Below, piece after piece: positions 504 to 30,360 of a DNA stretch of 32,243 bases. Under the pieces are notes generated by a model. The model had not been told where the DNA came from. It worked only from the letters and a program-made list of their open reading frames with translations, and did not search any database. The stretch is taken from positions 1-32,243 of IMG/VR virus record IMGVR_UViG_3300032676_002151, one strand, 5' to 3'. The DNA comes from a virus. Made by a program: the position numbers and the translations under genes. Numbering within the stretch: the stretch's first letter is position 1; each line of letters starts with the position of its first letter.

Positions 504-667
504 CGATAGCAGCCAGGGATCAGAGATCAGGAATCAGTAAGGCCCTGGCCGTTGTGGATCGGATGCGGCTGATCTTTGTGGGCGCGGGCGTTAAGTCGGT
601 GAGTGAGGAAATTGTTTTGAAGTGGGCGCGGGAGATTGAGGCCGCGGTGAAGAAAGAGGCGGAGTGA
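500..667 (+). CDS. Short early protein with GTG start overlapping the previous stop (55 aa)
   Basis: A 55-residue frame starts at GTG 500, overlapping the upstream TGA as GTGA, with a GGGGAGAG ribosome-binding site 5 bases upstream. The C-terminal half (VSEEIVLKWAREIEAAVKKE) is a good amphipathic helix and is clearly coding-like. Codons 5-13 are made of the heptad repeat array at 514-540, so the N-terminal residues come from translated repeat. An alternative is a start at ATG 562, giving 34 residues. Function unknown. Confidence 0.5.
   Translation: MTIAARDQRSGISKALAVVDRMRLIFVGAGVKSVSEEIVLKWAREIEAAVKKEAE
514..540 (+). repeat. Heptad array, CAGNNNN orientation (4 units)
   Basis: CAG recurs at 514, 521, 528 and 535, exactly 7 bases apart, with variable four-base tails (units such as CAGGGAT, CAGAGAT, CAGGAAT). 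It lies at the junction of two early genes and is read through by the small frame starting at 500. Confidence 0.8.
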
Positions 668-670
668 GCG

Positions 671-1000
671 ATGGCGACGGCGGCGGTGCGCAAGACGAAG
701 CGGGAGCGGCCGGAAGATGGCGGCGTGGTTTGGCGTGAGCAGTTCAACGCGTTCGAGTGCTATGGCTGCAAGGAGTTCACGGAGATCCGCGACCGGCAGC
801 GGCGCACGCCGGACAGGCTGGCGGAGATGCGGGAGTTTCTGATCATTGACCACACCGAATGCTGGGAGTTCGACGATCCGCGAATGGCGGCCGACGCGCG
901 GAAATACCGGAGCGAAAAAAAGCGGCGGGAGAACTTGAAGGCGCGCGCGGCCAGCGCCCTGAATCGGCAGAATGTGAGCTGGCGCGGGGGACCGCGCTAG
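671..1000 (+). CDS. Hypothetical early protein with CxxC (109 aa)
   Basis: Unrecognised. Highly charged; residues around 34-37 carry a FECYGCKEF motif with CxxC, and a later Cys and His sit in a DHTECWEF segment, so a small metal-binding site is possible. The C-terminal third is very basic (KKRRENLKARAAS), consistent with nucleic-acid contact. Start chosen at ATG 671 because GGAG lies at 661-664. It ends 35 bases before the next gene, and that gap contains CAG heptads. Confidence 0.65.
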   Translation: MATAAVRKTKRERPEDGGVVWREQFNAFECYGCKEFTEIRDRQRRTPDRLAEMREFLIIDHTECWEFDDPRMAADARKYRSEKKRRENLKARAASALNRQNVSWRGGPR

Positions 1001-1011
1001 TGGTCGGTTAG

Positions 1012-1036
1012 CAGTGGACAGCGAGAGGCGGGACAG
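1012..1036 (+). repeat. Degenerate CAG heptad array
   Basis: CAG occurs at 1012 and 1019 (7 bases apart) and again at 1034. The last unit reads CAGTGAA and contains the GTG start codon of the next gene at 1036. Confidence 0.45.
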
Positions 1037-1611
1037 TGAAGAACATCTGGAAGCAGGTTGTGGAGTGGGTGGCCTGGCGCAGGAGGCTGCCTTTGAAGTT
1101 CAGGGCGGCCCAGGAGTTGATGTTGCTGGAGCAGCAGCGCCTGAAGGCGCGCTGCGAGAAGGTGGAAGCCGGTATGCGGGCCGAGCTTGAGCGGGAGCGG
1201 GCGTTTTCGAAGGCGGTGGGGATGCAACTGCTGGAGGTGCGCGAAGAGTTGCGCGCGGCCTGGGCGGAGGCGCGTGCGAGCGAGGCGAAGTGCGATGCGC
1301 TGCGAGATGGGCAGACGCTCTCCGGCCTATCGCCAGCGGAAGTGGAGCGGCTGGCGCTGCTTGTGATGGCGGCGGGGAAGTTGTCGGCCGAGGCTGCAAA
1401 GGTGGTGCTGTATGGGTGGGGCTCACCCTCGCCCTGCACGGGGCGGCCGGCCTATGTGGATGTGGAGCGCGGGATGGGGCGGCTTGCGGCGGCGGCGGAG
1501 CTGATGGCCGAGGCCGGCGACGTGCGCGAGGGGGATGTGCGCGCGTATGGGGTACGGGCAAAGGAGCGCATGGCGGAGCAGGCGACGCGGCAGGGAGCCG
1601 CGAACAGTTAA
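1036..1611 (+). CDS. Coiled-coil early protein of unknown function (191 aa)
   Basis: Begins with GTG at 1036 after a GAGAGG-like site. A basic, Trp-containing N-terminus (KNIWKQVVEWVAWRRR) is followed by a long heptad-rich helix over about residues 30-95 (EQQRLKARCEKVEAG, ELRAAWAEARASE), which should form a coiled coil. The C-terminal half is Ala- and Glu-rich helix. This resembles small phage coiled-coil proteins that act as recombination or replication accessories, but no family is recognised. No catalytic motif is visible. Confidence 0.6.
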   Translation: MKNIWKQVVEWVAWRRRLPLKFRAAQELMLLEQQRLKARCEKVEAGMRAELERERAFSKAVGMQLLEVREELRAAWAEARASEAKCDALRDGQTLSGLSPAEVERLALLVMAAGKLSAEAAKVVLYGWGSPSPCTGRPAYVDVERGMGRLAAAAELMAEAGDVREGDVRAYGVRAKERMAEQATRQGAANS

Positions 1612-1625
1612 AAGTGTGGTGAAGT

Positions 1626-2231: not shown

Positions 2232-2250
2232 GCCGGCCGCCTGTTTAGAG

Positions 2251-2266: not shown

Positions 2267-2331
2267 AAGTCAACGCACAAACAAACGAATAGACGCGGCG
2301 TACCTGTTGCAGCCGCGCACGGGAAAGCACT

Positions 2332-3573
2332 GTGAACTCTGACTTGAAAAATCTGACGGGCTTGCGCAACGAACGCAAGCCTTGTCATTTCTGGGTGGAT
2401 AACGAGGTTGCGGATTGTTACCAGCCGATTGTGGGCGCGGACGCGATCTGGGTGTACTGCCGGATTGCGCGGAATGCGCACGGGGCCTGGATTGTGTCGC
2501 CGAAGGTGCGCGGCGGCGATACGCGCGTGAGTTTGCGCGAGATGGCGGAATGGTGCGGCAAGAGCGTGGATACGGTGTGGCGCTGCCTGCAGGTGCTGCA
2601 ACATGTTGGGCTGCTGCAAGCGGTGCGCGGCGCGAAGGCAAAGGGGCGTTACGCGCTGGCAGACGTGAAAGACCTGGTTACGCGGGAGGGTGGGGAATAC
2701 GACCGCGAGATCGGTAGCTTTCGACTGCCGGCGGCGAGGGCTGCCGAGCTGAAAGAGCAAGTGCGCGCACTGCGGCTAAAGCTGGCCAGGAAAAAGGCTT
2801 CGGATGCCATGGAAGCCACTCTGGCACAGGGGAAGGATGAGATTTCATCTGTCGCTCAGAGCGACAGATTGGAGGGTGAGCTTTTTGCTGTGCCTGAGGC
2901 AAAGAGCGACAGATTTGTCGCTCTGAGCGACAAAACTGTCGCTCTGGACGCACAGCCTTCTATTACTACAAAAAGCAAGACTGCAAGACAAAATCTACCC
3001 CCCCAACCCCCGCAAGTCACCCCAACGGGCAAAGGGCGCCCGTCGGGGACCCCGACAGCGGGGGAAGCTGGCTTGACCGAGGAGCAGCTTGCTCACCTGG
3101 CTACGATCACGGGCGATGAGGAAGAGCAGAAAAAGCACGGCCTGACAAAGCGGGAGTGGGAGGGCTACTACCGCGAGCAGAACCGGCAGGCGGCCGAGGC
3201 CGCCTGGGAGGAGTGCGCCAAAGCGAAACGGCAGCAGGCACTGGAGAGCCTGCTGCCGGACGAACCGAGGGCGCTGACCTGGGTGATGCAGGAGTGCGGG
3301 TTTTCCGGCGATGAGCGCGGGAGGGGGGTGCGGGGCGCGATTGCGGCGGTGCTGGCGCAGGAGCATGCGCGGGGCAGGCCGCTGTGGGATGTGGCGCCGG
3401 CGATGGCGTTGGCCTGGCGCGACTACGACCAGATCGGCGATCTGCTGGCGGTGCAGTATGGCGCGGTGAAGTTTTTCAGGCTGGGCGTCTGGGCTCGCCG
3501 GAACAGCTGGCGGATTGATGAAAAGAAAGCCGAGCGCAACAGAGCGAGCACGGGGAGTGGGGGAAGACAGTGA
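2332..3573 (+). CDS. Replication initiator-like protein with N-terminal winged helix (413 aa)
   Basis: Residues about 63-110 form a helix-turn-helix with wing (VSLREMAEWCGKSVDTVWRC, then a Gly-Arg-Tyr wing), typical of phage replication initiators of the lambda O / DnaD-like kind and of HTH_36-type proteins. A Lys/Glu-rich coiled segment follows (about 125-160), then a polar linker, then an acidic/basic helical C-terminal domain (about 240-400) that may contact helicase or loader. The linker DNA (2847-2944) carries six inverted or direct octamers, as expected when an origin lies inside its initiator gene. GTG start inside a CTGTGAA unit; the site upstream is GGGAAAG. No helicase Walker motif is seen, so helicase must come from the host or from outside the window. 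Confidence 0.65.
   Translation: MNSDLKNLTGLRNERKPCHFWVDNEVADCYQPIVGADAIWVYCRIARNAHGAWIVSPKVRGGDTRVSLREMAEWCGKSVDTVWRCLQVLQHVGLLQAVRGAKAKGRYALADVKDLVTREGGEYDREIGSFRLPAARAAELKEQVRALRLKLARKKASDAMEATLAQGKDEISSVAQSDRLEGELFAVPEAKSDRFVALSDKTVALDAQPSITTKSKTARQNLPPQPPQVTPTGKGRPSGTPTAGEAGLTEEQLAHLATITGDEEEQKKHGLTKREWEGYYREQNRQAAEAAWEECAKAKRQQALESLLPDEPRALTWVMQECGFSGDERGRGVRGAIAAVLAQEHARGRPLWDVAPAMALAWRDYDQIGDLLAVQYGAVKFFRLGVWARRNSWRIDEKKAERNRASTGSGGRQ
2847..2944. repeat. Iteron-like inverted octamers (TGTCGCTC / GAGCGACA), candidate origin of replication
   Basis: Six exact copies of the octamer lie in 98 bp: plus orientation at 2850, 2916 and 2937; minus orientation at 2859, 2904 and 2925. Two pairs form near-perfect palindromes with a single central base: 2847-2869 with 11-bp arms (ATCTGTCGCTC) and 2914-2934 with 10-bp arms (TTTGTCGCTC). 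An A-rich stretch with several short A runs (2960-2994) follows, which could serve as an unwinding element. Lying inside the initiator gene, this matches the lambda ori/O arrangement. Confidence 0.6.
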
Positions 3574-3594
3574 ACAGTGGAAAGCTGACAGCGG
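3568..3594 (+). repeat. CAG heptad array across a stop/start overlap
   Basis: Units start at 3568 (CAGTGAA), 3575 (CAGTGGA), 3582 (AAGCTGA) and 3589 (CAGCGGG), in exact 7-base register. The first unit supplies both the TGA stop of the replication gene and the GTG start of the next gene. Confidence 0.65.
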
Positions 3595-3815
3595 GCACGA
3601 AGATCGGCGCCGGGCGACGGGGCAGGAAGAGCACTGTGAAGCAGCGGCAGGATTGGTTTAAGGGTGAGATGCTGCTCGGGCGCGCGATGCTGCACGTTCA
3701 ACAGCAATACGCTTTGTATCCGGGTGATTTTCCAGGCGCCGAGGGGGATCCGCATACGTATCTCGCGCGGGCGTTGGCGCGGATTCGCAGAGAGCGTCGC
3801 GAGGCCGGCCGATGA
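3570..3815 (+). CDS. Small basic hypothetical protein (81 aa)
   Basis: GTG start overlaps the upstream stop (GTGA). The first eight residues are encoded by heptad-repeat DNA. The body is strongly basic (GAGRRGRKSTVKQR, and an Arg-rich C-terminus), with a QQQYALYPGDFPGAEGDPHTYL core, suggesting nucleic-acid association. No family recognised. Its 3' end overlaps the next start (ATGA). Confidence 0.6.
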   Translation: MNSGKLTAGTKIGAGRRGRKSTVKQRQDWFKGEMLLGRAMLHVQQQYALYPGDFPGAEGDPHTYLARALARIRRERREAGR

Positions 3816-5057: not shown

Positions 5058-5081
5058 CTGCAAGAGCGGCGGAGGAAGACG

Positions 5082-5325: not shown

Positions 5326-5349
5326 CAGTTGGAAGTGAGGAGTGAGGAT
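5326..5349 (+). repeat. Heptad array merging into the RBS of the holin-lipoprotein gene
   Basis: Units CAGTTGG (5326), AAGTGAG (5333) and GAGTGAG (5340) are in 7-base register, and the last provides the purine-rich ribosome-binding site before ATG 5350. Confidence 0.5.
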
Positions 5350-6183
5350 ATGTTCTCGAATATCTGGAATCATCCGAAGACGTCGGCGGCTGGTCTGCTG
5401 ATTGCGATTGTGACGATTGCGAGCGTGTTTTCTCAGCAGGGCATCACGCTGGGAAATGCGGGATCGGGCAGCGTGGTAACGCTGATCAGCGGAGTTGCGG
5501 CGGCGCTGCTTGGCCTGCTGGCGCGCGATCCGGGCGAGCCGGGTTCGCAGCCGGGTTCGACGGCCAAGCTGGGCGTGTGGGCGCTGATTGCGCTGCTGTT
5601 TTCGGGATCGATGTTGACCGGCTGCACGCAAGCGCAGAAGGTGAGCGTGGCGCAGGAGATTGTGAACTGGACGCCGGCGTTTGTGAGCGCGGTGGACACG
5701 TTGGGTGGGGTTGTGGAGATGCTGGACCCCGCAAGCGCTTTGATTGTGAGTCCGGTGACGACGGCCTTGAACGCGTTTGCGCCGCAGTTTGAGTTGGCGG
5801 CAAAGAGCTATCTGGTCAACCCGAACCAGACGACGCTTAAAGTGCTGCAGGCGCTGATTGTGCAGATCCAGCAGAACACGAACATGGCACTGCTGAGCGC
5901 GGCCAAAATTACCAATCCGAACAGCCAGAAGACCGCGCTGACCAATATCAACATGGTGGCGACGATTGTGAACACGCTGCTGGGGTTGGTGCAGAGCGTC
6001 AGCTCAAAGGCGCAGATCGCGGAGATGGCAAGCGGTGTGACGGTGACCTTGGCGATGGTGAGGCCGTTGATGGATGAGCCGGCGTTGGAGTCGGCTGGGG
6101 TGCGGGTGACGGCTGATTTGCGATTACCGGAGCGGGTGACCGCGCAGAGGTATTTCGCGGCTGAGGCGGCGAACGGGTTTTGA
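5350..6183 (+). CDS. Holin-like two-TM domain fused to a lipoprotein (277 aa)
   Basis: Start ATG 5350 follows GAGTGAGG. Residues 11-28 and 41-57 are two hydrophobic helices typical of a small holin-like protein, ending in a polar ARDPGEPGSQPG linker. Then STAKLGVWALIALLFSGS leads to a textbook lipobox LTGC with Cys 92, so residues 71-277 look like a complete lipoprotein with its own type II signal. The C-terminal domain (93-277) is helical and Ala/Val/Thr-rich, with no known motif. An internal GTG at 5575 could start a separate lipoprotein. By neighbourhood (endolysin downstream) it should act in lysis. A fusion of two normally separate genes is the simplest reading. Confidence 0.65.
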   Translation: MFSNIWNHPKTSAAGLLIAIVTIASVFSQQGITLGNAGSGSVVTLISGVAAALLGLLARDPGEPGSQPGSTAKLGVWALIALLFSGSMLTGCTQAQKVSVAQEIVNWTPAFVSAVDTLGGVVEMLDPASALIVSPVTTALNAFAPQFELAAKSYLVNPNQTTLKVLQALIVQIQQNTNMALLSAAKITNPNSQKTALTNINMVATIVNTLLGLVQSVSSKAQIAEMASGVTVTLAMVRPLMDEPALESAGVRVTADLRLPERVTAQRYFAAEAANGF

Positions 6184-6194: not shown

Positions 6195-6225
6195 CAGATA
6201 GCAGTGGACTGTGAACGGTTTGCGG
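6195..6225 (+). repeat. Heptad array, CAG/CTG/CGG units
   Basis: C-N-G triplets occur at 6195 (CAG), 6202 (CAG), 6209 (CTG), 6216 (CGG) and 6223 (CGG), exactly 7 bases apart, in the 129-bp gap after the holin-lipoprotein gene. Confidence 0.6.
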
Positions 6226-6790: not shown

Positions 6791-7069
6791 ATGGTAGTGA
6801 GTACGCCGCAGGTTTTTCAGGGTGTGACGCTGGCTGAATACGGCGTGCTGTGCCAGAAGGCGCAGGCGGCAGGAATCGCGATCAGTGGGCCGAGCGGACA
6901 GGCGAGCAAGTTTGGAGTCCAGGTCGGCTGGAGTTATGACGGGGCGACGGGCAACCTGACTGTGACGGTGCTGAAGGATTCGTTTTTGATGCGCGCGCCG
7001 GCGGTGCAGGCGAGGATTGCCGCGCTGATGTTGGAAGCAACGGGAATTGAGGCGACCGAATGCATTTGA
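6791..7069 (+). CDS. Hypothetical protein upstream of endolysin (92 aa)
   Basis: Unrecognised. It reads as an alpha/beta protein: an N-terminal helix (LAEYGVLCQKAQAAGI), a Gly/Ser loop, beta strands (GVQVGWSYDGATGNLTVTVL) and a C-terminal helix. The start could also be TTG 6779 or GTG 6797; ATG 6791 is used as the only ATG. It overlaps the endolysin start by 10 bases, so the two are probably co-translated. Confidence 0.6.
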   Translation: MVVSTPQVFQGVTLAEYGVLCQKAQAAGIAISGPSGQASKFGVQVGWSYDGATGNLTVTVLKDSFLMRAPAVQARIAALMLEATGIEATECI

Positions 7070-7500
7070 CGCTGCACTTTGAGGATGCGGAGCTAGGCGT
7101 GGCGGGCTGCGAGCAGCGGCTGATCGGCAATGCTACGGCGCTGTGCGTGAAGCTGCTGGAGCCGATCCGGGCGAAGTTTGGCCCGGTGGTGGTGCATGAC
7201 GGCTATCGCGACCCTGGGCACAATGGGCGCGTGGGCGGCAAGGGTGACAGTCAACACCTGTTCGAGGGCGGCAACAGCGCGGCGGACATTGGCGTGCCGG
7301 GCGTCGAGATGTGCGACGTGTTTGATTGGATCAGGCTGGAGAGCGGGCTGCCGTTTGACCAGGTAATTCTGGAGTCGAGCCAGGGTGTGGATTGCTGCGT
7401 GCATGTGAGCTATGACAGCGGCAAAACGGCGCAGCGGCGCATGGCGCTGGTGGGCCAGACGGGCGACGGCAAGGTGTATGTGCCGGCTGAAGTGAGATAA
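7060..7500 (+). CDS. M15-family peptidase endolysin (146 aa)
   Basis: A small zinc peptidase of the M15 (PF08291-like) group that would cut peptidoglycan stem peptides at lysis. The zinc ligands appear as His66 in GDSQHLFEGG, Asp76 in SAADIGVPG (together the SxHxxGxAxD signature), and His115 in CVHVSY. The length is typical of a single-domain M15 endolysin. No signal peptide is seen, so export through a holin is expected, fitting the holin-like gene upstream. It ends in a TAATG overlap with the HNH gene. Confidence 0.85.
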   Translation: MHLTLHFEDAELGVAGCEQRLIGNATALCVKLLEPIRAKFGPVVVHDGYRDPGHNGRVGGKGDSQHLFEGGNSAADIGVPGVEMCDVFDWIRLESGLPFDQVILESSQGVDCCVHVSYDSGKTAQRRMALVGQTGDGKVYVPAEVR

Positions 7501-8556: not shown

Positions 8557-10318
8557 GCCACATCTCAAGCCTCCAGGAGCCGCGCGCCGCGCGACCGTGG
8601 CTGATCGTCACTTCGCCGCCGTCGCCAACCGTTACGCTCGTGAAGTCGCCGCTGGCAAGATTCTCGCCGGAAAGTGGGTCATTAAGGCCTGCCAGCGTCA
8701 TCTCAACGACCTTGAAAAGTCGCGAAAGGACGATTGCTCATATCGGTTCGACGCCACCCGCGCCGGCCGCGTCTGCCGTTTTATCGAGATGCTCCCGCAC
8801 GTCAAGGGAGAGTGGGCGCGCGCTCAGCACGGCCAGGTGCCGCACATCAAGCTTGAGCCCTGGCAGACGTTCATTGTTTGCGTTATCTTTGGCTGGATAT
8901 ACAAGTCGTCCGGCTTTCGGCGTTTTGCCGAGGCCTATATCAAGGTCGCGCGCAAGAATGCCAAATCCACTCTGGCCGCGGCCATCGGCCTTTACATGCT
9001 GGTGGCGGATCGCGAGTGCGGCCCTGAGGTCTACTCGGGCGCGACAACCAAAAAACAGGCGATGGAGGTGTTTCGCACTGCGCGCCGCATGGCAAAGACG
9101 GCCCCGCGGTTCAAGGAACACTTCGACCTCGAGGTGAATGTCGAGTCCATTGTCGCGCAGCGCGATGATGGAAAGTTTGAACCGCTCATCGGCGATCCGG
9201 GAGATGGGGCATCGCCATCGTGTGCTCTCATTGATGAGTTTCATGAGCATCCAACCGCAAACCTCCACGACACCATGGTCACCGGCATGGGCGCTCGCCG
9301 CCAGGGCCTGACCATTGAAATTACCACCGCCGGCACTGACACGGCCAGCCCCTGTTACCTGGCTGAAAAGGATTGCGAAAAAATCCTCGACGGTCTGGTC
9401 GACAACGACTCCTTCTTCTGCGTCATGTACGCCGCCGACGAGGGCGACGATTGGAAGTCGGTCGCAGCGCAAAAGAAGGCCAATCCCAACTATGGCGTCA
9501 GTGTTTTTCCCGAATACCTTGACAAGCAGCTCCACGACGCCCTGCTCTCGCCGCACAAGCAATTCATTTACAAAACCAAGCATCTTGACCTATGGGGCAA
9601 CGCCCTCAACGGCTTCTTCAATATGGACGCCTGGGCAAAATGCAAAGACGGCAGCCTCTCGCTTGACGAGTTCAAGGGCGAGGCCTGCTGGATGGGCAAC
9701 GACCTCGCCGCGCAAATCGATCTGGCTTCGCGCATCAAGATCTTCCAGCGCATGAAGAAGAACGATCAGGGCATCCTGGTCCGCCACTATTATGTTTTCG
9801 GTCACCATTACGCGCCGCTCGACCGCATCATGGACGGCGACCATCCTCACTACCAGCGTTGGTATGAGGATAAGCATCTCCATGCCGTTCCCGGGCCTGA
9901 GATCCAACTCTCCACCATTCAGGCTGATATTGAGCGGGAGATCGAGGAGTACGATATGCAGCGCCTGGCGTTCGATCCGTGGTCTGCTCTGCAGATGCAG
10001 CAGCAGCTCCAGGAGCAGCTCGGCGACGATGTCGTCGCCTCTGTTCCGCAGACAGTGCAGCACCTCTCGCCGCCTATGAAGGAGCTTGACGCCGCAATGC
10101 GCGCCGGCCGGTTGCATCACGACGGCGATCCGGTCCTCACTTGGGCAATCTCCTGCGTCGTCGCCCGCGTCGACGCAAACGATAACGTCTTTCCCCGCAA
10201 GCTTGAAAACGGAAAAGACAAGATAGATCCGGCCACCGCGCTCATCACCGGAATCAGCCAGGCCATGGCCGGCGAAGTCCGGCGCCGCTTCACAAAGCCG
10301 CTCATCGCCTACGCGTAA
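8504..10318 (+). CDS. terL: Terminase large subunit, packaging ATPase-nuclease
   Basis: YmfN/Terminase_1-type TerL of about 600 residues. Walker A appears as KVARKNAKST (about residues 147-156), Walker B as CALIDEFHEH (about 240-249), then the coupling-type segment TIEITTAGTD. The RNase-H-like nuclease domain shows GNDLAAQIDLAS, RLAFDPWSAL and a late DGDPVLTWAISCVVARVDAND-type segment with conserved acids. It cuts concatemers and pumps DNA through the portal. Start GTG 8504 (GAGG nine bases upstream) is favoured; ATG 8480 and ATG 8528 are in-frame alternatives. The coding strand becomes C-rich from here on, unlike the G-rich genes upstream. Confidence 0.95.
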   Translation: MAAKNRKAMAASGRPSGKPHLKPPGAARRATVADRHFAAVANRYAREVAAGKILAGKWVIKACQRHLNDLEKSRKDDCSYRFDATRAGRVCRFIEMLPHVKGEWARAQHGQVPHIKLEPWQTFIVCVIFGWIYKSSGFRRFAEAYIKVARKNAKSTLAAAIGLYMLVADRECGPEVYSGATTKKQAMEVFRTARRMAKTAPRFKEHFDLEVNVESIVAQRDDGKFEPLIGDPGDGASPSCALIDEFHEHPTANLHDTMVTGMGARRQGLTIEITTAGTDTASPCYLAEKDCEKILDGLVDNDSFFCVMYAADEGDDWKSVAAQKKANPNYGVSVFPEYLDKQLHDALLSPHKQFIYKTKHLDLWGNALNGFFNMDAWAKCKDGSLSLDEFKGEACWMGNDLAAQIDLASRIKIFQRMKKNDQGILVRHYYVFGHHYAPLDRIMDGDHPHYQRWYEDKHLHAVPGPEIQLSTIQADIEREIEEYDMQRLAFDPWSALQMQQQLQEQLGDDVVASVPQTVQHLSPPMKELDAAMRAGRLHHDGDPVLTWAISCVVARVDANDNVFPRKLENGKDKIDPATALITGISQAMAGEVRRRFTKPLIAYA

Positions 10319-10329
10319 AGGGGTACAAG

Positions 10330-10500
10330 GTGAAATCAATCTTCGCCGATCTCGCCGTCCTCGTCGGGCTTGTCGCGATCTCGTATGGCTTCTGGCTCGC
10401 ATGGCGTCCTCTCAGCTTCATCGTCGGCGGTATGGCGCTCGGCGCGCTCGGCCTTCTCTTTGGACGCAGTATTCCCAGCAAGCCCGGGAGGCATTCGTGA
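10330..10500 (+). CDS. Two-TM microprotein between terL and portal (56 aa)
   Basis: GTG start at 10330 with AAAGGGG about 6 bases upstream. The product has two hydrophobic helices (about residues 6-24, LAVLVGLVAISYGFWLAW, and 28-45, LSFIVGGMALGALGLLFG) and a short basic tail. It ends in a GTGA overlap with the portal gene. Small membrane proteins of this shape sit at the same locus in other siphophages, with no assigned function. A membrane role in packaging or superinfection exclusion is speculation. Confidence 0.75.
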   Translation: MKSIFADLAVLVGLVAISYGFWLAWRPLSFIVGGMALGALGLLFGRSIPSKPGRHS

Positions 10501-12134
10501 GTCTTGTTCGATCCTTGCTGGTGGGCCTCCAGGGCCTGCGCGCCGATGTCGGGGGCGCTCCCGCTCCCTGGGATGACTTCTGGTACCGGGCAGTCGGTGC
10601 GCCCTCGGTGAGCGGCATGCGTGTCACGCCTGAGACAGCCAAGCGGCTCAGCGCTGTGATTGCCTGTGTGGGAGCCAAATGCCGTGCGCTCGGGGTTCTG
10701 CCCTGCTTTCTCTATGCCGAGATCGCCGGCGGTGGCAAGCGACTCGCCAAGGAGCATCCCTATTTCAACCTCCTCCACAAACGGCCCAACAGCCTGCAGA
10801 CCGCCTTTGAGTTCTTTGAAATGCTTCAGGGCCATGTCGAGCTGCGCGGCAACGCTTACGCTGAAAAGCTCACATCGAGCCGCGGCCTGGTCGGCGAGAT
10901 GATCCCTATGCACCCGGATCACGTCCGCCCTGAGGTGCTTTCCAGCGGTCGCATCCGCTATATCTACAACGATCCACTCACAAGCTCCACGCGTGTGTTG
11001 GTTCAGGATGAGGTTGTTCATCTCCGCGAATGGCCAGATCAGAGCTATGTGGGCCAGTCGCGCATCAGCATGGCGGTTGACGTCTTTGGTGTGGCGCTCG
11101 GGCAGCAGGATTACGCCGGAAAGTATCTCAAAAACGACGCTACTGCCGGCCTCGTCATCACCGGAACGAACTTCGAGACCAAGCAGGAAGAAAAGCAGTA
11201 TGAAGAGGCGTTTATCGCGGCCTCGACCGGCGAAAACCGCCATAGGGTCAAGATGCTTCCGCCTGGGGTCGATATCAAGTCGGTCGGCGTAAAACCCAGC
11301 GACTTTCAGCTTCTCGATGGCATCAAGGCCTCCGACGTCAAAATCTGCTCCATCTTCAACGTGCTTCCCCACCTGGTGGGCATTGACGCGGGCAAGGCTG
11401 CCACCTACGCCTCGGTTGAGCAGTTCAACCTCATGCACGCGCAGCAATGCGTGCTGCCTATGGCAGTCCGCTGGGAACAGGTCCTCCAGCGCGATGTCAT
11501 TGACGACGACAGGTTCTACTGCAAGTTTTCCATGGCGTCTTTGCTCCGCGGTGACTCGGCCACGCGCACGGCAAATGAGGCGGTAGCCATCGAGCATGGC
11601 ATCCTTTCTCAGGATGAGGCCCGTGAAATCGAAGACATGAATCCGATTCCGGGCGGCATTGGTAAGAAGTACTGGCGCGCCCTCAACTGGACCACTCTCG
11701 ATGCTCAGCCAGTCAAGCCTTCAGTTTCGGCCCCGCCGCCCGAGGATCCTTTGGACTCAAACGAGGACGAAGGATCCGGACAAAGTCTCGACCAGCAAGC
11801 CGCCCTCCGTGGCCAGCTTGCGCTCTTTGCGCATGACTCCGCGGCCCGGTGCGTGCGCCGCGAGGTCAATGGCGTTCGAAAGCTCATCGGCCATGAGGCC
11901 TCCCTGCCGGAGATCGGCGCCTTCTACGCCGAGCACTACCGCTTCGTCTGTGAAGTCTTTCATCTCAACGCGCTTCAGCAAGTCAAGGCAAAGCAGGCCT
12001 GCGACGCGCGCCTCTATGAGCTAGCGCGCGTGTTGAGCGAAGAAGGCTCGGCCGCCGCAACCGTCTGGATCGAACAGGTAGGCCTCACTGAGCCCATGAA
12101 ACTGGCGGCCCTGGCCGTCGAAGGAGTTGCTTGA
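10497..12134 (+). CDS. HK97-family portal protein (545 aa)
   Basis: Forms the dodecameric DNA channel at the head vertex. Typical features are the N-terminal segment SAVIACVGAKCRALGVLP, the LLHKRPNSLQTAFEFFEML and GNAYAEKLTS motifs, LVQDEVVHLREW, and the FNVLPHLVGIDAGKAATYASVEQFNL signature followed by NEAVAIEHGILSQDEAREIE and NPIPGG. The usual portal core is about 400-420 residues. Here a C-terminal extension of about 130 residues (acidic linker plus helical domain) follows. Start GTG 10497 overlaps the upstream stop, and the stop overlaps the protease start (TGATG). Confidence 0.95.
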   Translation: MSLVRSLLVGLQGLRADVGGAPAPWDDFWYRAVGAPSVSGMRVTPETAKRLSAVIACVGAKCRALGVLPCFLYAEIAGGGKRLAKEHPYFNLLHKRPNSLQTAFEFFEMLQGHVELRGNAYAEKLTSSRGLVGEMIPMHPDHVRPEVLSSGRIRYIYNDPLTSSTRVLVQDEVVHLREWPDQSYVGQSRISMAVDVFGVALGQQDYAGKYLKNDATAGLVITGTNFETKQEEKQYEEAFIAASTGENRHRVKMLPPGVDIKSVGVKPSDFQLLDGIKASDVKICSIFNVLPHLVGIDAGKAATYASVEQFNLMHAQQCVLPMAVRWEQVLQRDVIDDDRFYCKFSMASLLRGDSATRTANEAVAIEHGILSQDEAREIEDMNPIPGGIGKKYWRALNWTTLDAQPVKPSVSAPPPEDPLDSNEDEGSGQSLDQQAALRGQLALFAHDSAARCVRREVNGVRKLIGHEASLPEIGAFYAEHYRFVCEVFHLNALQQVKAKQACDARLYELARVLSEEGSAAATVWIEQVGLTEPMKLAALAVEGVA

Positions 12135-13324
12135 TGCGCTATTCCGCCATTGTTCGTGCCGTTTATTCCAGCGTCTGGGCCATTCTGCCTGAAAAGCTCG
12201 AGGCTATCGCCGCTTTTCTTGAGTTAAAAATCTCAGGAGAGTCGGCCTCACCGCAGGTGATTGCTGCGATCCGCGCGGAAAACCAGCTCGCCGAGGCTCG
12301 TATGCAATCGCTCTCGGCAGATAAGCCCGGCTCCGTCGTGGTCATGCCGCTGTACGGCATCATCAACCAGCGCGCCTCGGGCGATGTCTCGGGGCCTAGC
12401 GGCACATCGGTCCAGCAGTTCACTCAGCAGTTCCGCCAGGCCGTGGCCGATCCCAACGTCAAGGCCATCGTGCTTGACGTCGACTCGCCCGGCGGCACGG
12501 TCAGCGGGGTTGACGAGCTGGCCACTGAGATCTTCAACGCGCGCAAGCAGAAGAAGATTACCGCGGTATCCAACTGCCTATGCGCGTCGGCCGCTTACTG
12601 GCTCGCCTCGCAGGCCTCAGAGCTTGTCGTCAGCCCCAGTTCGCTCACTGGCTCCATCGGCGTCTATCAGCTCCATGAGGATGACTCTGAGGCTCTGGAG
12701 TCGATGGGCGTCAAGGTCTCGCTCATCGCGGCCGGAAAATATAAAACCGAGGGCAACAGCTTTGAGCCGCTCGGCGATGATGCTCGCGCCGCCATGCAGG
12801 GCGTCGTTGACGACTTCTATTCGCTCTTCACTAAGGCAGTCGCCCGCGGCCGCGGCGTCGCCGTCAAGGCGGTCGCCGGCGGCTTCGGCCAGGGCCGCTG
12901 CCTCACCGCGCAAGATGCTGTCAAACAGGGCCTCGCCGATCGCGTCGCCACGCTCGATGAGGTCCTTCAGAAATACGGCGTCCGCATGGGCGGCGGCGCG
13001 TCGGCCGCGATCCATCTCAGTCCGGCCCAGGCCGCCGCAAATCCCGGCATTCTGGCTACCGTGGATCCCGCGGTGATCGAGGTCTCGGCAGAGGTCATTG
13101 ACCCAAGCGACGGCGTGGACGATTCAGAGGCCTGCGCCTGTGCCTGTGGGTCCTGCCAGGGCGGCGACTGCTCCGGATGTACCCATGAGGGCTGCGACAC
13201 CGAGGCTGAAGGCTGCGAGGGCTGTGGCATGGTCTCCGCCGAAGACAGCTCTGAGCCAGACGGCGCCGCGGCCGTGGCAGAGTCTGAAGCGCGCGACCGG
13301 CGCATGCGCCTCGCGCTGCTCTAG
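12134..13324 (+). CDS. S49 (SppA/ClpP-like) prohead protease with Cys-rich C-terminus (396 aa)
   Basis: Head maturation protease of the S49 clan. DVDSPGGTVSGVDELA (about 115-130) is the oxyanion strand, CASAAYWLAS supplies the nucleophile Ser152, SPSSLTGSIGVY follows, and Lys204 in GKYKTEGN is the general base. It would cut scaffold and delta domain, and it sits as usual between portal and capsid genes. After residue about 325, a 35-residue stretch with nine Cys (runs such as CACACGSC and CSGCTHEGC) forms a candidate metal-binding or disulfide module, then an acidic tail. Start is ATG 12134, overlapping the portal stop. Confidence 0.92.
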   Translation: MRYSAIVRAVYSSVWAILPEKLEAIAAFLELKISGESASPQVIAAIRAENQLAEARMQSLSADKPGSVVVMPLYGIINQRASGDVSGPSGTSVQQFTQQFRQAVADPNVKAIVLDVDSPGGTVSGVDELATEIFNARKQKKITAVSNCLCASAAYWLASQASELVVSPSSLTGSIGVYQLHEDDSEALESMGVKVSLIAAGKYKTEGNSFEPLGDDARAAMQGVVDDFYSLFTKAVARGRGVAVKAVAGGFGQGRCLTAQDAVKQGLADRVATLDEVLQKYGVRMGGGASAAIHLSPAQAAANPGILATVDPAVIEVSAEVIDPSDGVDDSEACACACGSCQGGDCSGCTHEGCDTEAEGCEGCGMVSAEDSSEPDGAAAVAESEARDRRMRLALL

Positions 13325-13333
13325 TAGGTTTCC

Positions 13334-13349
13334 GGCGGCCAAAGCCGCC
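13334..13349. other. Hairpin between protease and capsid genes
   Basis: GGCGGC and GCCGCC pair around a CAAA loop 10 bases after the protease stop. No T run follows, so it is more likely an mRNA-stabilising hairpin or a remnant than a terminator. Confidence 0.4.
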
Positions 13350-13443
13350 ATTGTTCTGACGCTCGCGCGCTGCCCGATGGCGGCCCGGCGGCGTCGCGGC
13401 CTCAACGCTTTTCAACAAACGGGTACCGGGTGGCGCTCAGGGA

Positions 13444-13478
13444 CTGTTCTCTGTGCCCTGCTCCATGTTCCCTGTTCC
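13444..13478 (+). repeat. CTG heptad array upstream of the major capsid gene
   Basis: Units begin at 13444 (CTGTTCT), 13451 (CTGTGCC), 13458 (CTGCTCC), 13465 (ATGTTCC) and 13472 (CTGTTCC), in exact 7-base register, ending just before the ribosome-binding site. Confidence 0.8.
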
Positions 13479-13488
13479 TGAAAGGAAC
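13474..13488 (+). promoter_or_regulatory. RBS hairpin of the capsid gene
   Basis: GTTCC (13474-13478) can pair with GGAAC (13484-13488) around TGAAA, partly masking the AAAGGA ribosome-binding site 2-3 bases before ATG 13491. The 5' arm is supplied by the last heptad unit, so the repeat may tune capsid translation. Confidence 0.35.
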
Positions 13489-13490: not shown

Positions 13491-14768
13491 ATGAAACTGA
13501 GCAAGTTGCAGCAGCAGCGAGCCGAGGCCATTGACCGCGCCAAGGCGCTTCAGAAGGCCGCGGAAAATCGCGCCATGACTCCGGAAGAGAAAACCGAGTT
13601 TGAGGCCAGCGTGGCCCTCGGCGAGTCTCTGCAAAACGACATCGCCGCCGCCGAGCGGCTCAACGAGCTTGACCGCATCGCCGTCTCCGGCGTTCAGGTT
13701 GGCGACAACCTGGCAGCCAGGAAGCCCTGGCAGAGCAAGGCGGAGTTCTTCGGCACCGTCATCTCAAACACTCGGGCCAATCGCGTCACTGACCCGCGCC
13801 TGCAGGCCGCCCTGGGCGGTTCCGAGTCGGTTCCGGCCGAGGGCGGGTTCCCTGTGCCACCTGAATACGGTACTGATTTGCTTCAGCGCAGCTACGACGT
13901 CGGCGAGGTTGCCAGGCGCTGCGCCCATATCGATATGACCGCCGCGCGCCTCATCCTCAACGCGGTCGATGAGAGCAGCCGGGCAGACGGCTCTCGCTGG
14001 GGTGGCTTGCTCGCCTACTGGGCGGCCGAGGCATCTAACTACACCGGCACCAAGCCCAAATTTCGCGAGGTGCAGCTCGTCGCCAACAAGCTCATCGGCC
14101 TGGCCTACCTCACTGAGGAGCTCATGGAAGACACCACTGCGGTCTCTTCCTACATCGACACCATCTTCCCCGAGGAGTTCGCTTTCAAAATCGACGATGC
14201 CATCATCAACGGCAACGGCGCCGGGCAGCCCCTGGGCATCCTCAACGCCAAGTCGGCCGCTACCATCGTGCAGGCCAAAGACTCCGGCCAGGCGACCGGC
14301 ACCGTGTCGGCCACCAACATCCTCAACATGTGGGCGCGCTGCATCGCCAAGGGCCGCAAGAATGCGTGCTGGTTCATCAACCAGAGCATCGAGCAGGCTC
14401 TCTATCCGCTGCTCATCGCCGGAACCGCCGGCACCAGCACGGCCACCCTCATGTACACCGCGCCCGGACAGTACGGCAACAATTCCGACTATGGCCTCCT
14501 CATGGGAAGGCCGGTCATCCCCATCGAGCAGTGTGCGGCTCTCAGCTCCCAGGGCGACATCATCTTGGCCGATATGAGCCAGTATCTGCTCGCCAAGCGC
14601 AGCGAGGTCCGTGCCGACTCGTCCATCCACGTCGCCTTCCTCACCGGCGAGCTGGCGCTCCGCTTCATGGTCCGCCTCGATGGCCAGTGTTGGTGGAACA
14701 AGCCGTTGACCCCCAAGGCCACCACGGCTCCCACCCTCTCGCCCATCGTCACTCTCGCCGCCCGGTAA
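13491..14768 (+). CDS. HK97-fold major capsid protein (425 aa)
   Basis: Builds the icosahedral head. Residues 1-60 form a charged coiled-coil delta/scaffold-like segment (KLSKLQQQRAEAIDRAKALQ). The mature region starts near 95-115 (ALGGSESVPAEGGFPVPPEYG), the usual boundary for protease cleavage. Later motifs are typical: KLIGLAYLTEELMEDT, FKIDDAIINGNGAGQPLGIL, LLMGRPVIPIEQC and DMSQYLLAKRSEV. Length is normal for the family. It follows the S49 protease, which presumably removes the N-terminal segment. Confidence 0.96.
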   Translation: MKLSKLQQQRAEAIDRAKALQKAAENRAMTPEEKTEFEASVALGESLQNDIAAAERLNELDRIAVSGVQVGDNLAARKPWQSKAEFFGTVISNTRANRVTDPRLQAALGGSESVPAEGGFPVPPEYGTDLLQRSYDVGEVARRCAHIDMTAARLILNAVDESSRADGSRWGGLLAYWAAEASNYTGTKPKFREVQLVANKLIGLAYLTEELMEDTTAVSSYIDTIFPEEFAFKIDDAIINGNGAGQPLGILNAKSAATIVQAKDSGQATGTVSATNILNMWARCIAKGRKNACWFINQSIEQALYPLLIAGTAGTSTATLMYTAPGQYGNNSDYGLLMGRPVIPIEQCAALSSQGDIILADMSQYLLAKRSEVRADSSIHVAFLTGELALRFMVRLDGQCWWNKPLTPKATTAPTLSPIVTLAAR

Positions 14769-14878
14769 ACGCGCTCGTTGTCATCCTGGGCGCAGCGCGC
14801 CGGCGTTGAATAAGCCGGGTTTCGCCCGGGATGGCCTGGCAACTCTTCACCTTCCACTGTTTTCGACAAGGAGAAAAC

Positions 14879-15361
14879 ATGTCCGCAAAGGGCTTTTGGG
14901 CCGCTCAAGACGGCCACGTCGTCAGTGTCCTCTCGCCGCAGAACATCACCGGAGGAGTCACTGGCCAGATCTTCAACATGCAGGGGTATCACCACGCCTC
15001 GATCATCGTCCAGCTCGGCGCGCAGGCCGCGGCGGCCACCAAGATTCTGGTCAATGCCTGCCAGGATAACGTCGGCACCGGCGCGGCCGCCCAGCCGTTC
15101 AACCTCTTCACGCAGGAGACGGCGGGGCTCAGCAATGACGCGCTCTCCACGCGTCAGGCCGTCGCCGCGGCGGGCTATACCCCCAGCGGTAACGCCAACA
15201 TCTTTTACGTCATCGAGCTTGACGCCGACGCCCTTCCCGCGGCCTCTCCGTTCGTCCAGCTCCAAATCACCAACGGGGCCAACGCTGACTACGCCTCCGC
15301 CGTAGCCGTGCTCTCCGGCGGCCGGTTTACCGGAGATCAGTCGCCCACCGCAACCAGTTAG
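14879..15361 (+). CDS. Head accessory/decoration protein candidate (160 aa)
   Basis: Strong AAGGAG before ATG 14879. The protein is beta-rich with Ala, Gly and Thr, without Cys clusters or TM segments. Its motif QIFNMQGYHHASIIVQLGA and periodic hydrophobic strands suggest a compact beta-sandwich. Immediate placement after the capsid gene suggests a decoration or head-stabilising protein, and the strong RBS fits high copy number. Family not recognised. A CCGGG/CCCGG mini-hairpin (14815-14829) lies upstream. Confidence 0.6.
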   Translation: MSAKGFWAAQDGHVVSVLSPQNITGGVTGQIFNMQGYHHASIIVQLGAQAAAATKILVNACQDNVGTGAAAQPFNLFTQETAGLSNDALSTRQAVAAAGYTPSGNANIFYVIELDADALPAASPFVQLQITNGANADYASAVAVLSGGRFTGDQSPTATS

Positions 15362-15399
15362 CAGTTTTCAGTTGCCAGTGGTCGGCGGTCGGGGCCCGG
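15362..15399 (+). repeat. CAG/CGG heptad array (6 units)
   Basis: CAG at 15362, 15369 and 15376, then CGG at 15383, 15390 and 15397, all 7 bases apart, directly after the stop of the preceding gene. It is the opposite orientation to the CTG array 20 bases further on. Confidence 0.75.
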
Positions 15400-15417
15400 T
15401 TTTTCGGCTGCCGATCG

Positions 15418-15448
15418 CTGTCCATTGTTCACTGTTCGCTGTTCGCTA
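15418..15448 (+). repeat. CTG heptad array upstream of the 15467 gene
   Basis: CTG 15418, TTG 15425, CTG 15432, CTG 15439 and CTA 15446, in strict 7-base register. With the CAG array at 15362-15399 it makes a divergent pair around a CCCGG-containing centre. Confidence 0.75.
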
Positions 15449-15466
15449 AATTTCCGAAAGGCAAAA

Positions 15467-15983: not shown

Positions 15984-16007
15984 CTGCTCCCTGCTCCCTG
16001 TTCGCCG
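15984..16007 (+). repeat. CTG heptad array upstream of the connector gene
   Basis: CTGCTCC at 15984 and 15991, CTGTTCG at 15998 and CCG at 16005, in exact 7-base register, ending at the GGAGG ribosome-binding site of the next gene. Confidence 0.8.
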
Positions 16008-17763: not shown

Positions 17764-17794
17764 ATGATCTCCGATCTCTGACCCCTGAACCTTG
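17764..17794 (+). repeat. Heptad array upstream of the tail tube gene
   Basis: ATG 17764, CCG 17771, CTG 17778, CTG 17785 and TTG 17792 in 7-base register, with recurring ATCT and ACCC tails. It fills most of the gap between terminator and tube genes. Confidence 0.75.
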
Positions 17795-22647: not shown

Positions 22648-22678
22648 CTGACCACGGATCTCTGATCCCCGATCTCTA
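22648..22678 (+). repeat. CTG heptad array upstream of the Dit-like gene
   Basis: CTG 22648, CGG 22655, CTG 22662, CCG 22669 and CTA 22676 in 7-base register, starting two bases after the terminator T run. Confidence 0.8.
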
Positions 22679-24564: not shown

Positions 24565-24609
24565 CTGATCCCCGATAACTGATAACTGAACACCGAAAAC
24601 TGACTTCTG
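24565..24609 (+). repeat. Longest CTG heptad array (7 units)
   Basis: C-N-G at 24565, 24572, 24579, 24586, 24593, 24600 and 24607, every 7 bases without a break (units CTGATCC, CCGATAA, CTGATAA, CTGAACA and so on). The array reaches to the GGAG site of the TipJ gene. Confidence 0.88.
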
Positions 24610-24622
24610 GAGCGGCGCTGCC

Positions 24623-27808: not shown

Positions 27809-27818
27809 GGAGCCCACC

Positions 27819-29402
27819 GTGCGCAGAATTCTGTTGCTCGTTTCGTTGGCCATTTTGCTGGCAGTCTTCACAGCGCCCGCGGTGGCTCAAACCATCCTCG
27901 TGACCGCCGTCAACTATGGCGCGAATGTCATCGTTGCCGAGTCGTCGGGGACGGGCGCTCCCTCGGGCGGGTGCACCGGCTTTAATCGGTACATCCAAAC
28001 CTCCGGTGCGAATACTGCATCGCTCTGGCAATGCCTCGGGGGCACCTGGTATCAGCAGGGCGCGATCGGCAGCGGGGGCACAGTCACCAGCTTTTCGGCC
28101 CCGTCTGTGAGCTGGCCTGCATGGCTTGTGCCTACGGTAGCCACATCTACGTCCACACCGTCGTTGACCGTTGCGGCGAGCGCGATTCCAAACTCGGCTC
28201 TGGCCAACACGGGCACAACTGTCAATGGGCAATCATGCGTGCTTGGGTCGAGCTGCACGCTACCCTTTCAGACGAATGGCTCAAGCAACAGCTCGCAAGC
28301 AGGCATCAACCTGCTCACAAGCACGGCGAACGCTGTGGGCTTGACGGTGACTCCGGTCAACTCGGGGACCAATCAGGAAAAGTTCGAAATCACCGGCGGC
28401 AGCTATACCGGATCGGCGGCAGGATATTCGGGTTCGGCTCACGGCCTGGCCGCTCCACTGATCTGTATCGGCGGCTCGGATACGAGCTCGGCGATGGCCT
28501 GCACGACCAGCCCAACATTTACACCGGCCGCAGGGGATACGATTCTTTTCCTGCCTGACGTCACGCCGACTGTGACCGCTACGCTTTCTGTCAACGGCGC
28601 TGCTGCCAAGTCCTTTGGCTCGGGCGGAGCTTCGTTCGCGCCCGGTAATGGCTACTTTCTGCTGACTTATACAAACATCTTGGGCATCTACAACTGGATT
28701 CCGGCTGGAGCCAATTTTGTCATCGGACCCGGTGGCGGCGGAACGGGCGCAGTCAGCCTCTCTGGCATCCCCTACGCCAGCGGTACAGCCTGGACCAACG
28801 CCACCGCTGCGCAGCTTGGCACGCTGTTCTCATCCTACATCTCCACAGTCACTGGTTGCGGGTCGGCGGGATACTTCTATGTCCCCGGCAGCACCACTTG
28901 TCGCCTCCTGGCTTCGGGGGATATTCCGGCCAACGCGGCCAATACAAGCGGCACGGCCGCCAACCTGAGCGGCACTCCTGCCCTACCCAACGGCACCACC
29001 GCAACCACGCAGACGGCTGCTGACACAACCAACGATCTTGCGACGGACGCCTTCGCGACACTCTCCGGAGTCACCGCGCCAGCGTATACGACCTGCTCCA
29101 CAACTTGCGCTGTGAACCTGGCCACCGGCCGCACGCAGATCATTCTGCTCACCGGCTCGCCCTCGGCTATGACCTTCACCAACGCCAGCGCCGGGCTTTA
29201 CACCTTCGCCATTGCGCAGAACTCGACAGGCGGCTACACCTTCACCTGGCCCACCGGGACGCGCGGCGGTGGCACCATCAGCTCTGCGGCCGGCACGGCC
29301 ACGGCGAGTACGGTGGCCACGCAGTCCTTTGTCTACATCCCTTCCGGCGCAATCACCACCGCCGCTTTGGTGGCCCAGGGTGCGATGACCTTCGGCAACT
29401 AA
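27819..29402 (+). CDS. Tail fibre-like protein with a Sec signal peptide (527 aa)
   Basis: GTG 27819 follows GGAG. Residues 1-23 are a clear signal peptide (MRRILLLVSLAILLAVFTAP, then AVA before Gln24). The rest is Ser/Thr/Gly/Ala-rich, beta-repetitive fibre sequence. Cysteines are ten in the mature part and come in pairs (QSCVLGSSC, TTCSTTC), consistent with disulfides made outside the cytoplasm. The C-terminal module (about 430-527; LYTFAIAQNSTGGYTFTWPTG) is homologous to the TipJ end. Position suggests a receptor-binding fibre, yet export would keep it from cytoplasmic tail assembly. It could instead be a secreted or surface fibre. Confidence 0.75.
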   Translation: MRRILLLVSLAILLAVFTAPAVAQTILVTAVNYGANVIVAESSGTGAPSGGCTGFNRYIQTSGANTASLWQCLGGTWYQQGAIGSGGTVTSFSAPSVSWPAWLVPTVATSTSTPSLTVAASAIPNSALANTGTTVNGQSCVLGSSCTLPFQTNGSSNSSQAGINLLTSTANAVGLTVTPVNSGTNQEKFEITGGSYTGSAAGYSGSAHGLAAPLICIGGSDTSSAMACTTSPTFTPAAGDTILFLPDVTPTVTATLSVNGAAAKSFGSGGASFAPGNGYFLLTYTNILGIYNWIPAGANFVIGPGGGGTGAVSLSGIPYASGTAWTNATAAQLGTLFSSYISTVTGCGSAGYFYVPGSTTCRLLASGDIPANAANTSGTAANLSGTPALPNGTTATTQTAADTTNDLATDAFATLSGVTAPAYTTCSTTCAVNLATGRTQIILLTGSPSAMTFTNASAGLYTFAIAQNSTGGYTFTWPTGTRGGGTISSAAGTATASTVATQSFVYIPSGAITTAALVAQGAMTFGN

Positions 29403-29412
29403 GAGGAGATCC

Positions 29413-30312
29413 ATGAAAAAGCTTAATCTGTATCTCTGTCTGGTGGCGGGACTGCTTCTCCTGCCTGTCGAAGCCTTCGCTCAGAACGTCCAGGTCGGCG
29501 CCGAACAAAACCGGGGCGTCACCAGCGCGGCGGCGGTCGCCACCGACAGCACCGGCAAGCTCAAGGCTGCCACCATCGCCGGCGCGGGCGCAGGCCTGAC
29601 TACTGGGCCAACCTCCTCGGTCTCCGGGGATTGTGTCGCATTCACCGGCACGGCCGGCCAGATCGCCGACAACGGCGCGGCCTGCGCAACAACTTACACG
29701 CTGCCGACGGCCACCAGTTCGACGCTGGGCGGCGTCAAGCCTGACGGCACAACCATCGCCGATTCCTCCGGCGCAATCAGTTGCGCCACCGCGACCTCTT
29801 CGCAGCTTGGCTGCGTCAAACCAGATGGGACTACTATCACGATCGCATCCGGAGTAATCAGCGCGGCGTCGGCGTCACAAAGCAACTTCGTTTCCACCGC
29901 GCAGAACATCACCGCATCGACGTTCACCGCGATCACCAACATGGTGACGCCAACCATTCCGGTCAACACGACGCGGCGCGGGGTCTGCTACCTCTTCTGG
30001 GGCCAAACGAGCGGGAACGCTGCAATCACGATTGGCGCGGCTCTGAGCGCATCCGGGGCAACCGGCACAATCGGCATGTTTGGATCGATCTCAAACTTCT
30101 CCGGCGCAACCACGCTGAGCGGCACCTCTACGGCCACAGTTGTATCCAGCACTCCGCTTGCAGTCGGGTCGCTGCTCTATACCTCGATGATCACCTTCAC
30201 GGTGACAACCGGGGCAACCAACCCGGTGACGCTTCAGCTCTACGGCTATACGGCAACCTCTGGCGATCCCTTCGTCGTCAACGTGGGGAGCAACTGCGGG
30301 CTTCTGCCTTAG
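29413..30312 (+). CDS. Second fibre-like protein with a Sec signal peptide (299 aa)
   Basis: GAGGAG lies 6 bases before ATG 29413. Residues 1-23 are a signal peptide (MKKLNLYLCLVAGLLLLPVE, then AFA before Gln24), like its neighbour. Residues about 95-155 hold two tail-fibre repeats (LPTATSSTLGGVKPDGTTI, and SSQLGCVKPDGTTI), a module common in phage fibres. The C-terminal half is a beta-rich, Thr/Ser/Gly-rich domain. Six Cys occur after the signal, in pairs. It starts 10 bases after the previous stop, so the two are an operon. Confidence 0.75.
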   Translation: MKKLNLYLCLVAGLLLLPVEAFAQNVQVGAEQNRGVTSAAAVATDSTGKLKAATIAGAGAGLTTGPTSSVSGDCVAFTGTAGQIADNGAACATTYTLPTATSSTLGGVKPDGTTIADSSGAISCATATSSQLGCVKPDGTTITIASGVISAASASQSNFVSTAQNITASTFTAITNMVTPTIPVNTTRRGVCYLFWGQTSGNAAITIGAALSASGATGTIGMFGSISNFSGATTLSGTSTATVVSSTPLAVGSLLYTSMITFTVTTGATNPVTLQLYGYTATSGDPFVVNVGSNCGLLP

Positions 30313-30315
30313 TGA

Positions 30316-30360
30316 CTCAATGCTGATAACTGTCGGCTGTCATCTGTTGGCTGTTTGCGG
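30316..30360 (+). repeat. CTG heptad array after the fibre genes
   Basis: CTC 30316, CTG 30323, 30330, 30337, 30344 and 30351, and CGG 30358 are exactly 7 bases apart (units CTGATAA, CTGTCGG, CTGTCAT, CTGTTGG). It fills the gap up to the next gene. Confidence 0.88.

Follow-up and report, generated by a model that had tools for sequence, protein, structure and literature searches.

CTG-type heptad arrays at the gene junctions of a tailed phage and their possible kinship with foldback-like intergenic repeats

The DNA analysed here, from a soil-type phage, is a virus record of 32,243 bases (IMG/VR record IMGVR_UViG_3300032676_002151; hereafter, the window). Its genes match the terminase large subunit, portal, head maturation protease, major head protein, major tail protein and distal tail protein families of PHROGs, and the window is therefore assigned to a tailed phage. 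Between these genes lie arrays of heptads of the form (CTGNNNN)n, or CAG in the opposite sense, which are the subject of this report. Gene positions were taken from a simple gene caller and a list of open reading frames (ORFs), and start sites are approximate. Relatives of the portal protein numbered 45 among viral contigs, and one was found in an Acidobacteriota genome with 47% identity, which makes an Acidobacteriota host plausible. That genome, G001, was our first host candidate; it contained no match to strict heptad patterns, so the host of the window remains unproven. For comparison, we used the W group, comprising the window and its portal relatives, and group D, comprising phages related to the portal of contig L159, which were retrieved through their proteins, independently of any DNA pattern.

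An initial annotation had described at least fourteen gaps containing such arrays and had proposed a 7-base autocorrelation test against shuffled gaps. The test revealed the expected excess: across 21 gaps (2,336 bp), identity at lag 7 was 0.3285 (z=7.3), lag 14 reached z=3.8 and every other lag remained below 3.1, while the window as a whole displayed codon periodicity alone and no 7-base signal. Nine CTG-heptad chains scored at least 5.5, whereas 20 Markov-simulated windows averaged 0.65; one of the nine, located inside a gene at 14525, is probably due to chance. With a fixed gap list, CTG/CAG ranked above all other triplet cores, with 8 chains in gaps and 4 for the runner-up, and of the periods from 4 to 15, only 7 (8 chains) and 14 (3 chains) yielded any CTG chains in gaps. 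The lag-7 signal and the CTG chains establish the family as real, although its size had been overstated. Eight sites are clear (at least 3 in-phase CTG/CAG units), two are degenerate (4 in-phase units, some with mutated cores) and four are weak (1–2 in-phase units, singly indistinguishable from chance), and a fair count is 8–10 (Table 1). Possible coding DNA is touched at three sites: 514 and 3568 coincide with GTGA overlaps at which small candidate ORFs start, and 15351–15378 overlaps the final codons of a gene. In L018, the gap orthologous to the degenerate array at 17764 reads CTGACCC CTGACCC CTGATCC CTGAACC.

Table 1. Heptad arrays of the window, followed by hairpins with Shine-Dalgarno-like sequence (classes as defined in the text)
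Site, class	Feature	Coordinates	Strand	Context
514, clear	CAG-sense array, 4 units	510..537	-	CTGATTC CTGATCT CTGATCC CTGGCTG on minus strand; 7 nt past stop at 503; score 8; may be N-terminal coding sequence of small GTG ORF 500-667
1012, weak	CAG-sense pair CAGTGGA CAGCGAG	1012..1025	-	12 nt past stop at 1000; below chain threshold
3568, clear	CAG-sense array, 4 units, one core mutated	3564..3591	-	At stop 3573; score 5.5; may be coding sequence within ORF 3570-3815
5326, weak	Very weak: single CAG unit followed by AAG, GAG	5326..5346	-	28-nt gap; below chain threshold
6195, weak	CAG-sense pair	6195..6208	-	12 nt past stop at 6183; below chain threshold
13444, clear	CTG-sense array, 5 units CTGTTCT CTGTGCC CTGCTCC ATGTTCC CTGTTCC	13444..13478	+	Upstream of major capsid gene (PHROGs); score 7.5
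15362, clear	CAG-sense array, 4 units	15351..15378	-	Spans stop at 15361; score 8
15418, clear	CTG-sense array, 4 units, one core mutated	15418..15445	+	Before ATG 15467; score 5.5
15984, clear	CTG-sense array, 3 units CTGCTCC CTGCTCC CTGTTCG	15984..16004	+	Before ATG 16021; score 6
17764, degenerate	CTG-sense array, 4 units ATGATCT CCGATCT CTGACCC CTGAACC	17764..17791	+	Before ATG 17819 (major tail protein, PHROGs)
22648, degenerate	CTG-sense array, 4 units	22648..22675	+	Before ATG 22699; read from sequence
24051, weak	CTG-sense pair CTGACCA CTGAAAA	24051..24064	+	Before ATG 24088; below chain threshold
24565, clear	CTG-sense array, 7 units CTGATCC CCGATAA CTGATAA CTGAACA CCGAAAA CTGACTT CTGGAGC	24565..24613	+	Before ATG 24623; score 9
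30316, clear	CTG-sense array, 5 units CTGATAA CTGTCGG CTGTCAT CTGTTGG CTGTTTG	30323..30357	+	Before ATG 30371; score 10
	Hairpin GTTCCT GAA AGGAAC enclosing Shine-Dalgarno-like sequence	13474..13488	+	Directly before ATG 13491
	Hairpin TTCGCC GGA GGCGAA, Shine-Dalgarno-like loop	16001..16015	+	
	Hairpin GTTTTGC GAACAAAGGA GCAAAAC, Shine-Dalgarno-like loop	17794..17817	+	

The arrays had been placed just before start codons. This holds for the CTG-sense sites only, all eight of them beginning 37–58 nt upstream of a start codon; the six CAG-sense sites are instead associated with stop codons, at distances of −5 to +12 nt (at 1012 and 5326, the gaps are so short that both gene ends are close). 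CTG therefore always reads into the nearer gene, a polarity that the initial annotation missed, together with the inverted pairing described below. A DNA pattern matched on both strands retrieved 80 viral loci, and these obey the same polarity: CAG-sense arrays were nearer the stop by 60:9 (median 4 nt past it) and CTG-sense arrays nearer the start by 59:19 (median 13.5 nt ahead of it; p=1e-14 for the polarity). It was also present in 30 Acidobacteriota loci (p=0.002); the W relatives alone were not numerous enough to reveal it (p=0.54). Since the arrays are symmetric for starts and stops, they are not tied to the direction of transcription. CTG-sense leaders are G-poor and weakly folding, and those of the W group frequently terminate in a hairpin enclosing a Shine-Dalgarno-like sequence, as would be expected if the heptads were merely a convenient sequence for unstructured, pyrimidine-rich leaders acting as ribosome standby sites. 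However, leaders that lack arrays are not poor in G and not unstructured, and the CAG arrays after stops are left unexplained, so that such a role is hardly credible; the unstructured leader was rejected as a general rule, and the array-free leaders likewise give no support to the earlier proposal of an mRNA spacer as a general function.

The period is not restricted to the window. Among unselected gaps of group D, 96 repeat runs were detected at lag 7, compared with 4–24 at other lags, and 57 of the 96 contain CTG, where simple counting predicts about 20% for random heptamers; words without CTG include AAAACGG (11) and AAAGTTC (4). Random stretches of two Acidobacteriota genomes yielded CTG in 19 of 82 runs, near that expectation. 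The belief that similar repeats occur in acidobacterial genomes was borne out, as the pattern (CTGWYCN)3CTGW matched 87 of 396 Acidobacteriota genomes versus 6 of 119 from Bacillota, the two sets being unmatched in genome size and base composition. A reversed control pattern, counted by hand, matched 50 of the 396 Acidobacteriota genomes; heptad arrays with other cores are thus also common. One genome, G065, carries 503 matches to this control pattern. The 7-base period is thus a general feature, with CTG as its most frequent but not its only core. Arrays are absent from distant group D relatives and from several W relatives, including L003, whose capsid protein is 74% identical; the trait is therefore patchy.

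Some viral contigs are far richer in arrays, with 18 in 10 kb in L162, 16 in 7.2 kb in L208 and 14 in 5.4 kb in L182, and most of their gaps are occupied; a tape-measure query turned up no further relative of L162. The gaps of the densest phages are CAG...CTG palindromes. Nearly all gaps with two arms have this orientation, the exceptions being one clean reversed gap in the viral set and one mixed gap in Acidobacteriota, and single-armed gaps are about as frequent as paired ones. In two Acidobacteriota chromosomes, whose array regions were picked around known matches, array pairs within 1 kb are 20–720 bp apart and favour CAG...CTG over the reverse by 14:1; some Acidobacteriota pairs bracket a gene. 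The window has a single two-armed gap, 15362–15466, with arms at 15351–15378 and 15418–15445, again CAG...CTG. Inverted arms bracketing a small gene were observed in the portal-upstream gap of L265 (an unnamed ORF), in L426 at 6895–7408 (hotdog thioesterase-like) and in L413 at 10079–10554 (dtd-like). Inverted arrays as transposon ends with their own transposase were rejected, the two bracketed Acidobacteriota genes that were read resembling, by their sequence, dtd and a hotdog thioesterase. The motif CAGTAAARGC recurs at the inner edge of the CAG arm in many gaps (L182, L208, L220, L261, L263, L266 and L277), which suggests that these spacers may share ancestry beyond the heptads.

In the densest phages, folding energies of the full CAG...CTG gaps range from −35 to −86 kcal/mol, and replacement spacers in related phages are palindromic too, as intergenic RNA hairpins serving as RNase III sites, in mRNA 3'-end protection or in insulation would be. 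Against this, pairing within a gap was no stronger than after arms had been exchanged among the gaps of a contig (−48.1 vs −48.15 in 27 gaps), for which reason a selected hairpin was rejected, and the abundance of single-armed gaps and the mostly single-armed arrays of the window also speak against a role that we consider very unlikely. In the gaps read, the stems lead into start codons or Shine-Dalgarno-like sequence, and not into the T tract of an intrinsic terminator. Rfam gave 0 matches in the window, L162, L182, L208 and L159.

The changes in arrays that we observed concern other phages with arrays and the relatives of these; none was seen in the phage of the window. Among intergenic indels of at least 4 nt between close phages, 12 of 36 were multiples of 7. 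Array words are genome-specific: the probability that units of different arrays share a word is 0.185 within a contig and 0.040 between contigs, and CTGATCC is the dominant word in Acidobacteriota G356 and G068. Comparing L159 with L193, we found one gap in which the phase and three units are kept and the words differ, and another in which one phage has a heptad spacer and the other an unrelated hairpin, behind a gene that is 98.8% identical. In the group D clade, which is separate from the window and has portal proteins 83–100% identical, the stop–start junction upstream of the portal gene holds at least six unrelated palindromic tandem-repeat spacers: CTGCTCA heptads, CTGATCA/CTGACCA heptads, CGGAAAA heptads around a small ORF, ATCGGCGT repeats, GGGTAAAA repeats and GGGAACC heptads. 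The flanking genes are the same throughout, and their proteins are about 75–97% identical, values of about 75–80% belonging to the most distant of the pairs compared at this junction. Palindromes of the GTAGGGGCGGG...CCCGCCCCTAC type serve as spacers at several junctions of the same phages (L263, L270–L274). The earlier view of an expanding family is supported by these 7-multiple indels, genome-specific words and spacer replacements, but no change of unit number is seen in the phage of the window.

Changes in steps of 7 bp, together with arrays of other words (AAAACGG, AAAGTTC and those matching the reversed pattern), are what simple slippage repeats would produce. Heptamers arising by chance would then lengthen or shorten through replication slippage and accumulate mutations, neither moving between loci nor having a function. 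We regard this as unlikely, given that it leaves unexplained the fixed CAG...CTG orientation, the homogenisation of one word across a chromosome, the change of words at constant unit number between L159 and L193 and the replacement by unrelated palindromes. Genome-specific words could instead track the specificity of a DNA- or RNA-binding protein, for which the arrays would be binding sites, as proposed for TAACTGA repeats before starts or in the manner of phage stoperators. The conserved core with variable tails, the strict polarity at gene edges and the spread through most gaps of some phages would agree with this, yet the start/stop symmetry means no tie to transcription direction, the core is protected only about twofold, near relatives have whole spacers replaced by unrelated sequence, and arrays are missing from W relatives whose capsid protein is about 74% identical, so that binding arrays appear quite improbable. 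A recombination seam for module exchange, also suggested earlier, was rejected, since array junctions are not clearly richer in gene-order breaks (0.70 vs 0.64 at other gaps in group D; 0.39 vs 0.69 in the W group).

The best explanation places the arrays in a widespread family of heptad repeats located between genes. They may well be expandable, exchangeable, foldback-like repeats related to the TAACTGA heptamers discussed below, a reading that we favour while being no more than half convinced of it. A strand-symmetric rule at the DNA level, whole-spacer replacement and genome-wide homogenisation are more in keeping with exchangeable repeats than with regulatory sites or with slippage alone. 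Its arrays are arms of (CTGNNNN)n with CTG reading into the nearer coding sequence, and the fuller form, in other phages and Acidobacteriota, is an inverted CAG...CTG pair filling the spacer from stop to start. Such arms of short direct repeats would be acquired, dropped and substituted as entire spacers, slippage would alter the unit number and words would become homogenised within a genome; we propose that the repeats would be retained at gene junctions because insertions are tolerated there. The window is a sparse, degenerate, mostly single-armed version. If the arrays are exchangeable repeats, the spacers presumably move as units, purifying selection would account for their retention at junctions, and the single arms of the window would descend from paired forms.

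Several observations weigh against exchangeable repeats. The arrays of the window are invariant in three near-identical assemblies (two 100% identical, one with a single mismatch). At the group D portal-upstream junction there is no clear target-site duplication or empty site, the spacers being replaced and not cleanly absent, and replacement could result from recombination in the flanking genes combined with rapid spacer turnover. Core positions are just about twofold less variable than tails in units between matching units, and the share of CTG words in the viral loci is biased, as a CTG pattern selected them. Beside the arrays, no transposase or REP-associated tyrosine transposase (RAYT) was noticed, although no systematic search was made, and the two bracketed Acidobacteriota genes that were read are dtd-like and hotdog thioesterase-like. 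A bolder version, which we hold to be possible but doubtful, is that some phages and their bacterial hosts share interchangeable foldback spacer cassettes, with inverted arms of tandem 7- to 11-base words, which an enzyme would insert or exchange exactly between stop and start codons, the arrays of the window being remnants. As DnaG primase initiates at CTG, the starts of units might conceivably be linked to priming sites. These results extend intergenic heptamer repeats to phages and Acidobacteriota, with a fixed polarity to genes, and orthologous junctions with a wholly changed spacer between unchanged genes make the origin and spread of the repeats testable. They also advise against aligning the leader and spacer sequences of such phages as if vertically inherited.

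Short perfect hairpins around Shine-Dalgarno-like sequence accompany some of the window's arrays (Table 1), and further ones precede an ATG at 14859–14878 in the window and in L006, L011, L012, L015, L017 and L018. The W group contains 21 of them against a null of 6.9 (maximum 14), and group D is not enriched; the hairpin is therefore a separate W-group trait and was rejected as an array component. Upstream of the major capsid gene, the window contains a structured conserved element at 13322–13417 (GGCGGCCGAAGCCGCC ... GCCCGATGGCGG ... GCGGCGT). Its alignment in 12 W-group phages (the window, L003, L004, L007, L009, L012, L016, L020, L022, L023, L024 and L031) has 22 predicted pairs, 6 of them with compensatory changes, and no Rfam match. 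It is possibly an autoregulatory leader RNA.

Among known systems, cyanobacterial short tandemly repeated repetitive sequences are tandem intergenic heptamers, as are the arrays described here; we know of no paired palindromic arrangement for them. Foldback (FB/TU) transposons and miniature inverted-repeat transposable elements have inverted arms of short direct repeats and a variable interior able to hold a gene, FB being eukaryotic. The resemblance lies in the inverted repeat arms of other phages and Acidobacteriota, some of which bracket a gene; in the window, one gap is two-armed. Repetitive extragenic palindromes and bacterial interspersed mosaic elements are palindromic intergenic repeats, often within operons, with RAYT transposases, whereas the arms described here are tandem heptads, and no RAYT was noticed beside them, no RAYT profile search having been made. 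The T4-type mobile regulatory cassettes of Arbiol et al. (2010) are reportedly intergenic and were proposed to be mobile in phage genomes, a likeness that does not extend to gene-order shuffling, which was tested at the arrays and not seen. Mycobacteriophage-type stoperators are asymmetric single sites in one orientation to transcription, unlike these tandem arrays, which occur in both orientations and are symmetric for starts and stops. The sole direct precedent that our literature search turned up concerns TAACTGA heptamer repeats, which are intergenic in marine Beggiatoaceae, Cyanobacteria and Bacteroidetes, with forward sets before starts, reverse sets after stops, 7-nt indels between strains and rare Shine-Dalgarno sequences in repeat-bearing gaps (MacGregor 2015, PMC4679880). 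That paper covers one exact word and mentions neither phages nor Acidobacteriota (PMC4679880). Period and register are the same here: the window arrays are intergenic direct repeats of exactly 7 nt, forward before starts and reverse after stops, and TAACTGA corresponds to the word CTGATAA. As a direct repeat it is present once in the window, as TAACTGATAACTGA at about 24576–24589 within the array at 24565..24613, the other arrays using other words. Unlike the TAACTGA repeats, several window arrays are followed by Shine-Dalgarno-like sequences, and the family described here is distinguished by degenerate genome-specific words, CAG...CTG pairs and exchanged spacers.

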